Source: Minwuia sp.
GTDB taxonomy: Bacteria > Pseudomonadota > Alphaproteobacteria > Minwuiales > Minwuiaceae
Assembly (NCBI GenBank): GCA_029213165.1
Contig: JARGNO010000023.1
Coordinates: 13,019-55,697, forward strand
DNA length: 42,679 nucleotides
Direction: 5' to 3'
Shown here piece after piece: positions 37,076 through 40,418 of this stretch; positions within the stretch are counted from its first letter, which is position 1; every line of letters starts with the position of its first letter. Below the pieces are notes generated by a model. It saw only the letters and a list, made by a program, of their open reading frames with translations, had not been told where the DNA came from and did not search any database. Position numbers and translations under genes: made by a program.

Positions 37076-38233
37076 ATGACCGCTCAGATAGACGTCACGG
37101 AAGTCCAGCGCCTCATCGGTGCCCTGTCCGCCGACAACAAGTCCACCGTCGCCGCGCAGGTTGGCCGACTGATGAACAGTTCCGGCCTTGCGCCGAAGGA
37201 ACTGCGTGTCGCTCTGGAACTGGTCGATCAGCTGATCGCGGACTCTGTCGCGACGGTGCGCCAGTCCCTGGCCGAACACATTGCCGAATCGCCCATGCTG
37301 CCTCGCCCGATGATCGAACGGCTGATCGCCGACGTGGATGCTGTTGCCCTGCCCATCGTGCGGCTGTCGTCCCTGCTGGATGACACCCTGCTACTGGAGC
37401 AGCTGGAACGTGGCGAGAACTACCAGATGGCCGTCGCCGGGCGCGAATCGGTCAGCGCGGTGGTGTCGGAACGTATCGTCTCTGTCGGGACGGAGCAGGC
37501 GGTCGGTGCCCTGGTGCGCAACACTGGCGCGGACCTGCAGGCCGGTGCGCTGGGCCGAGCGATGGATCGGTTTCCGGAATCGACCAATGTCATGGGGGCG
37601 GTTGCGGCCCGTCCGGGATTGCCGCTGGAGACCGCCGAGCGACTGGTCTCGCTGGTGGTCAGCGAGGAATGCATTCGCTCCGTTTCCGACATGATGATGG
37701 ATGCGCTGGTGAAGCGCAGCGACCTGCCGCCGATCCTGGCGGAGGACATCTTCGTGCATGGCATGGAGCGCTCGGTCGCTTCCGTCATCAAGGATTCCGA
37801 CGACGTGGCAGAGGTTCAGGAACTTGCGGCCCGCATGAAGGCACAGGGCCGCCTGACCACCAGCCTGATGCTGCGTGTACTGGCGGGCGGCGATCACCAG
37901 TTCTACATGGCGGGCATGGTCGCGCTCAGTGGCTGGCCGGAACAACGGGTGAAGGGCGCCATGGATGGTGCCGGGCTGGACGGCTTCCGTCGCCTCTACG
38001 AAGCATCCGGTCTGGAACCGATGATGTTCCATGCCTTCAGGGTTTCCCGCGACGAGATTGCCGCCGCCCGGAAGCGTCGGGAGGGTATGGACGAACCGAC
38101 CTTCATTCGCCGTGTCGTCGCCCGCATCAGTGACGAGTACAGCAACATCAGTCCGACGGGACTGGAAGAGGTTCTGGCCCGCCTGCGCCGTCGCGCCGAC
38201 GGCTCCGGTGGTGCCTCCCGCGCCCGCGCCTGA
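37076..38233 (+). CDS. DUF2336-domain protein
   Basis: A 385-residue, mostly helical protein with HEAT-like repeats of the DUF2336 family, common and almost confined to Alphaproteobacteria. Repeated units with patterns such as VRQSLAEHIAESPMLPRPMIERL and VAARPGLPLETAERLVSLV are visible. There is no signal peptide or membrane segment. The C-terminus is basic (ARLRRRADG). GGGAG lies about 7 nt before ATG 37076. The function of the family is unknown. It is divergent from the DksA-like gene, sharing an 113-nt promoter region, and is the last normal-composition gene before the AT-rich island. Confidence 0.88.
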   Translation: MTAQIDVTEVQRLIGALSADNKSTVAAQVGRLMNSSGLAPKELRVALELVDQLIADSVATVRQSLAEHIAESPMLPRPMIERLIADVDAVALPIVRLSSLLDDTLLLEQLERGENYQMAVAGRESVSAVVSERIVSVGTEQAVGALVRNTGADLQAGALGRAMDRFPESTNVMGAVAARPGLPLETAERLVSLVVSEECIRSVSDMMMDALVKRSDLPPILAEDIFVHGMERSVASVIKDSDDVAEVQELAARMKAQGRLTTSLMLRVLAGGDHQFYMAGMVALSGWPEQRVKGAMDGAGLDGFRRLYEASGLEPMMFHAFRVSRDEIAAARKRREGMDEPTFIRRVVARISDEYSNISPTGLEEVLARLRRRADGSGGASRARA

Positions 38234-38760
38234 CCGCCTGATCCCAACCGTCACACCTACCTGCCCATCGTCCGGCTGACCTTTCAGGCGGACCACCTTA
38301 TTGAGCAGCCCATGCTGGCGACGTGCTGGCGCGGTCCCCGCGATCAGCCGCTTGGCATCCAGCAGCTTCGCTAGGCTGGTCATTCTACGGATCAGTACAC
38401 AGCAGAGGGAAGTCCTTCAGGCTGAGGGCGCGCAACAAGAGCGCGACCGTCGCCGATTACCTTGCACGGAAGGTGCCTAGACAATCTTGCGACGTGCCGA
38501 CGTATTGTTCGCTAATAATCATTAATTCATTGGCCGCCATATCCGTATAGCTGCAGAGAACGGCATGGATTCGATAAATATCAGCATTCTAGGAAATGTT
38601 TCTGTTAGTTTATCGATGCAGTTCGATCAGTAAAATTCAAGATAAAAAAAATCCTTGCCGCAACATTTTCGTGAATGATTTATTCAATCTTCGTCTTTTG
38701 ATCAATTTCGAAAAATTTTATGCCCCTAATTTTGTCATGAATCGAAGATATGCTCATTAT
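38234..38760. other. gap with composition switch; no gene recognised
   Basis: Up to about 38500 the composition is like the rest of the window; beyond it the DNA turns AT-rich. An 8-bp inverted repeat (38234-38241 and 38284-38291) follows the DUF2336 stop. A minus-strand frame starting at 38383 (TSLAKLLDAKRLIAG) looks protein-like for about 45 residues and then runs antisense through the DUF2336 gene; it may be a gene remnant that I cannot identify. The 38560-38760 part shows only AT-rich sequence and a loose 7-bp inverted repeat (38687-38693 and 38743-38749). Confidence 0.5.
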
Positions 38761-39396
38761 TCACGGGCCTTTTGATTGAATCCTAACTAGATTGTATAGG
38801 CTATCAAATTCCAAAATTGCTATTTCTTTATATGTTCCGTCTGAATTTTTTGGAAAATGAAGATTTTCTATTGTATAGGCAACGTTTCCTCTTCCAGATT
38901 TCCTGGTTACCTGCAATTTTCTATTTTCCACCCAATTCAAATTTACCAGAGATCCACCGTGGAATGCTGAGGAAGGCTCAATCTTGTAGCGAAGGTGAGA
39001 TCCTCTATTCCCATTTACAATATTCAACACATAGTATGGCGAAACATAAGCCAGTACATTCCCATCCGGGGAAATATCATAGCTTTCCCTTCCAATTCGA
39101 CATCCCCTCCCAACAGTAGCTGTAGCAAATTTCATAGGAAAAATGTAGGGACATGGTTCAAAATGGGTGCCAGCGACCGGATGAATTAAATAATCACTAA
39201 GTATTCCATCTTCCAGTGCCCAACCATTATTGTTACTGTTAGGCGCGATAGGGTTGGCATTTATTGATGAGAAGGATTCCGGAATCTTGTCATTTGATGA
39301 AAAAAATTCAGAAATATTATCTATCCCTGTCAAAAATACGAAAATCGTTATCATAGATGCCAAAAAACCCGCAACTATGACCGCAAGCATGTTCAT
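38761..39396 (-). CDS. membrane-anchored orphan protein in AT-rich island
   Basis: A 211-residue protein whose codon use (AT-rich third positions, AAT, AAA and ATA common) differs strongly from all neighbours. One N-terminal membrane helix (MNMLAVIVAGFLASMITIF) is followed by a Ser/Asn-rich linker and a likely periplasmic domain with two Cys (PCPY and GRGCRIG). The segment ISPDGNVLAYVSPYYVLNI resembles a single beta-propeller-type blade, but no family can be named. A start at ATG 39396 is preferred over TTG 39402; ATG 39390 is also possible. No strong ribosome binding site is seen. The long open frame in AT-rich DNA, where stops are frequent, supports a real gene. It was probably acquired by transfer. 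Confidence 0.6.
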   Translation of the reverse strand: MNMLAVIVAGFLASMITIFVFLTGIDNISEFFSSNDKIPESFSSINANPIAPNSNNNGWALEDGILSDYLIHPVAGTHFEPCPYIFPMKFATATVGRGCRIGRESYDISPDGNVLAYVSPYYVLNIVNGNRGSHLRYKIEPSSAFHGGSLVNLNWVENRKLQVTRKSGRGNVAYTIENLHFPKNSDGTYKEIAILEFDSLYNLVRIQSKGP

Positions 39397-39424
39397 GATC
39401 AAAACTCACATCGCATCTATCAAA

Positions 39425-39451
39425 AATATATTGCTATTGGACGAATCGCAA
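39425..39451 (-). promoter_or_regulatory. possible promoter of the orphan gene
   Basis: On the minus strand TTGCGA (39446-39451) and TATATT (39425-39430) are separated by 15 nt, a little short of the usual 16-18. Transcription would start about 20 nt before the ATG at 39396. This is a weak call made by eye. Confidence 0.25.
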
Positions 39452-39479
39452 CACTTAAGCACCTTGCAATCGACCACGC

Positions 39480-39934
39480 ACCGGGATCACCCGTTCTGGC
39501 GTTGTCTAGGCGTCCGCGATACTGCAGCCTACTATCGCCATTCATGCTGAAAAATTCCGGAGCGCGGACCGCCTGCCCCCAAGGTCCAACCGACTTTCTG
39601 GTCTTCAACAACCAGAAAAGGGAAGAGGAAGCCGAAATGACTGGCGAACTGTTTCATGCTGTCATGCGGGGCGGGCTTTCAGTGCTGACCATAGTATAGT
39701 CTCTCGACATGACAATCTGGACGTTGAATCCCTGAGCCATCAGTGCTGCGGTGCCCGCTGCTAGGTGCTCACCGATGGCCTGACCGCGCACGGGCAATGA
39801 TTGCAGATGAAGGCGACCAGCAGGCCCCTCTCACCCAGGTGATCCGACATGCGGAAACTCTGGCCTGACGGGTCGTTCAGAACGAAATCCGGGGCTTTCC
39901 AGCCAAAGTCGCAGATGGGTGTGTCGAGCAGCAT
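39480..39934 (-). pseudogene. thioredoxin/peroxiredoxin-like protein, frameshifted and truncated
   Basis: A good start remains: ATG 39934 with GAGGAG 7 nt upstream. The first frame reads MLLDTPICDFGWKAPDF and the redox motif FICNHCP, then stops at TAG 39761-39763. The family sequence continues in other frames: AIGEHLAAGTAALMAQGF and VMSRDYTMVS (about 39683-39779), MKQFASHFGFLFPFLVVEDQ (about 39591-39662) and FFSMNGDSRLQYRGRLDNAR (about 39490-39555). These follow the order of intact proteins of about 180 residues, so at least three frame changes have broken the gene. Its 3' end fades out where the AT-rich island begins. The first lesion, near 39780, looks like a one-base loss. It lies just downstream of greA. 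Confidence 0.8.
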
Positions 39935-39944
39935 CGCAAGCTCC

Positions 39945-40418
39945 TCAGAGCCACTTCACCCCGATGATTTCATAGGACTTCTCACCGCGCGGCGTCTGTA
40001 CATCGACGGAATCGCCTTCCGACTTGCCGATCAGCGCACGCGCGATGGGACTGGTGATGGAGATCAGGCCGCTGTCGATATCGGCTTCATCGACACCGAC
40101 GATCTGATACTCGCTCTCCTCATCGGTATCCACATCGGCCAGGCTGACCGTGGCACCGAAGCGCACTGTATCGCCGGACATCCTGGTGGTGTCGATCACC
40201 TCTGCCCGGCTGAGCGCGCTTTCCAGATCCATGATGCGGGACTCGATGAAGCCCTGCTTCTCCTTGGCCGCATGATACTCCGCGTTCTCGGACAGATCGC
40301 CGTGCGCACGCGCCTCGGCAATGGCCTGGATGACATCCGGCCGTTCAACCGACTTCAGATTCTTCAGTTCCGCTTCAAGGCGCTGCTGGCCTTTCAGCGT
40401 CATTGGGACACGTTCCAC
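39945..40418 (-). CDS. greA: transcription elongation factor GreA
   Basis: A 157-residue factor that enters the RNA polymerase secondary channel and promotes cleavage of backtracked RNA. The N-terminal coiled coil has [27 protein letters not shown], with the acidic tip Asp and Glu (D-L-S-E-N-A-E; family pattern). The C-terminal FKBP-like part includes [17 protein letters not shown]. The start is GTG 40418 (MERVPMT is the usual family start), with AAGG about 9 nt upstream; ATG 40403 is possible. It is 75 nt after carB on the same strand, as in other alphaproteobacteria. A hairpin lies in the gap. Confidence 0.96.

Follow-up and report, generated by a model that had tools for sequence, protein, structure and literature searches.

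Cortez et al. 2009 (PMC2718499) described ORFans in clusters of atypical genes of integrative-element origin, and in Sinorhizobium fredii MucR reportedly represses foreign genes that are rich in AT (PMC8857273). The locus considered here lies in a window of 42,679 nucleotides (the whole stretch of DNA that was analysed), which belongs to contig C84 of a 4.12 Mb genome that is 99.86% complete. Like the ORFans of Cortez et al., its gene has an atypical composition, homologues that were not found, and no counterpart in relatives. Unlike them, it is a single gene that comes without a recognisable element gene, and its link to an element is one that we infer. With the strain-specific genes targeted by MucR (PMC8857273), it shares an AT-rich, lineage-specific character and an alphaproteobacterial genome with MucR homologues; the present gene is likened to those targets by its sequence. 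The insertion target, in turn, resembles genes of the AhpC/TSA-Redoxin family (PF00578/PF08534), since the intact copy in one congener, G001, is above the Pfam cut-offs for both; it differs from them in that a frameshift, a stop codon and the insertion have disrupted the copy in the window. With its atypical composition, its absence from congeners and no homologue found, the orphan gene fits an ORFan of the lineage-specific, probably horizontally acquired kind.

The explanation that we consider likely is that, in this lineage, a redoxin gene received an insertion of about 1.1 kb of foreign, AT-rich DNA with one orphan gene in it (Table 1). The segment would have arrived by horizontal transfer, a claim that is built on composition and on absence in relatives because no donor or homologue was found. 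It would most likely be phage or integrative-element debris joined by illegitimate recombination, a residual reading, since neither a match to a recombinase family nor a terminal repeat was found. The redoxin (AhpC/TSA-type) gene that it entered lies between DUF2336 and greA, appears dispensable and would have been hit in its last fifth. As gene acquisitions go, such an event is ordinary; it is also a fairly clean single-gene foreign insertion, for which the uninterrupted host gene is available in two congeners.

Table 1. Features at and around the insertion (positions in the window).
Feature	Position	Strand	Remarks
DUF2336 gene	37076..38233	+	PF10098, E 1.4e-41; flanks the insertion
Redoxin 3' remnant	38290..38380	-	About codons 148-181, in two frames; tblastn matches score 36.6 bits and 23.5 bits (E 5e-8 when joined)
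Inserted segment	38372..39480		About 1.1 kb (midpoints; span used as query); absent in congeners; redoxin homology stops and resumes there
Left part of insert	38381..38500		About 120 bp, 58% GC, no recognisable content
AT-rich island	38501..39470		37% GC
Orphan gene	38761..39402	-	213 codons if read from a TTG start, 211 if read from the ATG at 39396; predicted N-terminal hydrophobic helix; Cys82, Cys99
Redoxin (AhpC/TSA) 5' part	39477..39934	-	About codons 1-148; frameshift and in-frame TGA; tblastn with the G001 protein, and alignment
greA-like gene	39945..40418	-	Open reading frame upstream of the redoxin gene; 94.5% DNA identity to G001

According to alignments with the congeners, the left junction falls within 38366-38381 and the right one within 39470-39486; on the left, the DNA alignment of the redoxin 3' remnant to G001 extends up to 38365. 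Of the 182 codons of the redoxin gene, about 145-148 precede the cut. The initial annotation had seen here a broken thioredoxin-like gene next to a DUF2336 gene. The broken gene is the redoxin gene, interrupted by the insert and further damaged by the frameshift and the TGA; the DUF2336 gene beside the island is confirmed by its family match, and its product is 94% identical to that of the nearest congener compared and 91% identical to that of a second one. The open reading frame on the other side is taken to be greA-like, following that first reading of the sequence. Both G001 and G005 have an unbroken redoxin frame at the insertion site; there the gene occupies the interval between DUF2336 and greA, downstream of greA and in the same orientation. 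The insert DNA is found in none of the six congeners, and thus in one of seven genus genomes when the source genome is counted. The proposal of a past insertion is borne out by the uninterrupted redoxin genes and by the absence of the segment elsewhere. Close relatives that shared the segment as ancestral sequence had been named as grounds for abandoning that proposal, and when the six were examined none of them carried it. By these alignments the insertion is lineage-specific, absent from the congeners at the same locus.

The G001 redoxin is a protein of 182 residues with the motif FICNHCPY, which matches AhpC-TSA (PF00578) with an E of 3.4e-19 and Redoxin (PF08534) with an E of 1.4e-17; the G005 copy is 77% identical and unbroken. 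Full-length redoxin is present in four of the seven genus genomes (the source included): G001, G005, G003 and G006. The copies in G003 and G006 show 52% identity and lie away from the DUF2336 gene. No redoxin match was obtained in G002 or G004, and G004 has a gap of about 40 bp between its DUF2336 and greA matches. The redoxin gene thus appears, from its distribution, to be dispensable in the genus. At 6140-6420 of L046 in G002, there is seemingly a short redoxin remnant between DUF2336 and greA, which would mean that the gene was lost here independently.

Composition changes sharply within the insert. GC is 0.372 across the island and 0.631 in the whole window. In 200-bp steps it falls from 0.62 (38300-38499) to 0.35 (38500-38699), stands at 0.32 in both 200-bp windows that span 38600-38899, and on the right side rises from 0.395 (39300-39499) to 0.545 (39500-39699). 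When positions 1-42500 are divided into fixed 500-bp blocks, the blocks at 38501 and 39001 are the only ones with less than 52% GC. The stepwise profile and the block scan confirm that an AT-rich island of about 1 kb lies within high-GC DNA. On the left, the insert reaches further than its AT-rich part. Such low-GC islands look rare in this genome: a 500-bp window below 45% GC was encountered in just one of 20 stretches elsewhere, with a minimum of 43%, in a non-random sample of 20 kb per stretch (400 kb of the 4.12 Mb) for which nine contigs were used that earlier matches had brought up. The low-GC stretch of the 400-kb sample is at 10551-11150 of L054; with 300-bp flanks, its three longest listed frames have 82-106 amino acids.

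The left piece of the insert, of about 120 bp and 58% GC, could be host DNA rearranged here. Compared with the source genome, 38366-38520 matches itself, and the 17 other matches are short, with an E of 0.29 or worse. A Pfam scan of one open plus-strand frame over this piece gave no match. The possibility that it is a second redoxin fragment was rejected, as there was no tblastn match within 38386-38500 at an E of up to 10.

The island carries one long frame whose product has a probable membrane anchor and two cysteines, as had been claimed. In 2000 dinucleotide shuffles of the island, no open reading frame was as long as 213 residues (mean 73, maximum 196). The protein has a single hydrophobic segment, at residues 4-22, where the best 19-residue Kyte-Doolittle mean is 2.7, and both cysteines follow this segment; Cys82 and Cys99 could perhaps form a disulfide. 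The lone hydrophobic segment and the charges on its flanks suggest that the product is a bitopic protein of the inner membrane, probably with a periplasmic C-terminal domain; the periplasmic placement is suggested because an acidic flank follows the helix. Structure prediction gave a pLDDT of 37 for the whole protein, with values above 50 only in approximately the first 25 residues, and 31 for the C-terminal 177 residues. The predicted helix is the only part that is modelled with confidence.

The GC contents at the three codon positions of the orphan frame are 0.43/0.39/0.34, which differ from those of DUF2336 (0.72/0.46/0.78) and greA (0.65/0.41/0.75), so the frame is un-adapted to its host. 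Its start codon and upstream signals appear weak. The initial annotation had proposed that the gene has a promoter of its own, for which the sequence offers no support: the nearest minus-strand site (39423-39395) overlaps the start codon. Over the region, seven promoter-like sites were found where 2.2 are expected, and one terminator-like site where 1.7 are expected.

Searches for relatives of the orphan protein covered families, genomes and mobile elements. Scans of Pfam, PHROGs, NCBIfam and PADLOC families gave no match below an E of 0.3. The best family match (PHROG 12081, E 0.33) and the best entry of a PDB sequence search (2zbu, E 0.47) are not significant, and an assignment as an Rz-like spanin by way of phrog_12081 was rejected, the match covering only residues 8-64, that is, the hydrophobic segment and its flank. 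Among 60 relatives, the source genome included, the protein is present in the source genome alone. A class-wide search of 385 genomes returned the source genome and one weak match (G257), a phylum-wide search of 398 genomes the source genome and two (G705, G538), and a search of 369 genomes in the class of G705 a single weak match, G705 again; these four samples overlap. The three matches, with E-values of 0.001-0.007 that are stated for one genome among the 369-398 searched, span 49-71 residues with one or two internal stop codons each and were taken as chance. Phages and plasmids contain no match to the protein at an E of up to 1, a distant DNA search of plasmids found nothing, and no relative was confirmed among viral and genome contigs by a method that finds close relatives only and may leave out records very near the window. 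The genome, phage, plasmid, viral-contig and family searches did not reveal a donor. Together, the profile scans and genome searches gave no convincing relative, in keeping with the first description of the domain as unrecognised. Should the protein turn out to be in use, a new family would be there to characterise.

Divergence from G001 varies along the redoxin gene. DNA identity is 93-97% over 39819-39938, 78% over 39759-39818 and 50-71% over 39519-39758. At fourfold sites, the identity between the source genome (G000) and G001 is 0.67 in DUF2336 and 0.81 in greA, and the first 141 aligned bases of redoxin are 96.5% identical, with 0.905 (19/21) at fourfold sites. The 50-71% identity of the redoxin body is comparable with the fourfold value of DUF2336, which argues that this body has decayed about neutrally. 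The high values next to it suggest a later recombination patch that covers greA together with the 5' end of the redoxin gene, with a candidate breakpoint near greA at the step in identity at 39759-39818. Neutral decay and a recombination patch together yield no date for the insertion.

It is very improbable that the segment is ancestral in the genus and was precisely deleted in the other lineages. The locus is indeed unstable, as seen in the two congeners without a redoxin match and in the close spacing of DUF2336 and greA in one of them, but the frame in G001 and G005 is both continuous and conserved, and deletion would have to restore it exactly in at least two lineages, which strongly disfavours this history. 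Somewhat less remote, though still quite unlikely, is a degenerate insertion sequence, a MITE-like element or a minimal mobile cassette. The insert has the size of an insertion sequence, and a perfect 10-bp inverted pair (38475-38484 and 39502-39511) lies near its edges, exactly as first reported. The pair was said to bracket the island; it exists, but it does not mark the ends of the insert. Its right arm, being redoxin coding sequence that can be aligned to both G001 and G005, predates the insert, and its left arm sits 94-109 bp in from the left junction. At the insert ends themselves, terminal inverted repeats were not found. That the pair might be chance, as was conceded from the start, agrees with its being only mildly unusual, post hoc: 827 of 20,000 base shuffles produced an inverted 10-mer match between the two 250-bp edge zones. 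The stretch 38200-39700 holds six inverted 10-mer pairs against 1.5 expected from base shuffling, and three of the six derive from one internal 12-bp pair (38840/39301). Two 6-bp direct repeats join the junction zones, CTAGGC (38371/39506) and GGATCA (38389/39484), although about 0.7 are expected by chance, as estimated from the sizes of the zones; the flanking pseudogene has diverged too far for the junctions to be placed to the base, which limits any reading of these repeats as a target duplication. No transposase, integrase or recombinase family was matched in Pfam by the frames scanned (the orphan frame; one minus-strand and three plus-strand frames of at least 60 residues over or overlapping the island; and one plus-strand frame over the left part), and the source genome contains no copy of the segment other than the insert itself.

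Whether the long frame serves as a gene is a separate matter. That it is a passenger in recently acquired DNA, not used as a gene, is a real possibility that falls somewhat short of an even chance; it overlaps with foreign insertion into the redoxin gene, which needs no use of the gene. The lack of a convincing homologue and the weak start and upstream signals are what a passenger would show, and a young insertion stays open by default: in simulations with substitutions only, indels being uncounted, the frame was still without a stop in 1257 of 2000 runs at 0.02 substitutions per site, 627 of 2000 at 0.05, 287 of 2000 at 0.1 and 68 of 2000 at 0.2. A mere passenger fits less well with a typical hydrophobic helix and with a length that the shuffles show to be unexpected in random AT-rich DNA; length and helix make it probable that the frame was a gene in the donor at least. 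It is doubtful that the orphan gene encodes an undescribed membrane-anchored periplasmic domain kept by selection, its frame remaining open while the redoxin gene decayed. If the insertion caused the redoxin decay, the frame should have drifted to loss, and an open frame would imply selection; for an insertion as old as the decay, chance survival of the 211-codon frame is unlikely, given the outcome at 0.2 substitutions per site. The low GC at third positions of the frame (0.34, against 0.75-0.78 in the neighbours) instead speaks for a recent arrival, at a time when the gene was decaying already; this order is preferred over decay caused by the insertion, although the data do not decide between them.

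If, as we favour, a foreign segment entered the redoxin gene, the product may be an envelope protein that derives from an element and brings the host modest benefit or none, which is a guess. Expression would be low through Ros/MucR-type silencing of AT-rich DNA. The source genome has two ROS_MUCR matches over the cut-off, and silencing of the orphan gene by MucR is plausible by analogy.

Elsewhere in the window, at about 41744, a minus-strand gene that is presumably carB-like is split into two frames with approximately 8 residues missing between them, and the corresponding gene in G002 is one open frame of 1085 codons (stop to stop). The split is likely an assembly error, or else a real lesion in a core gene.
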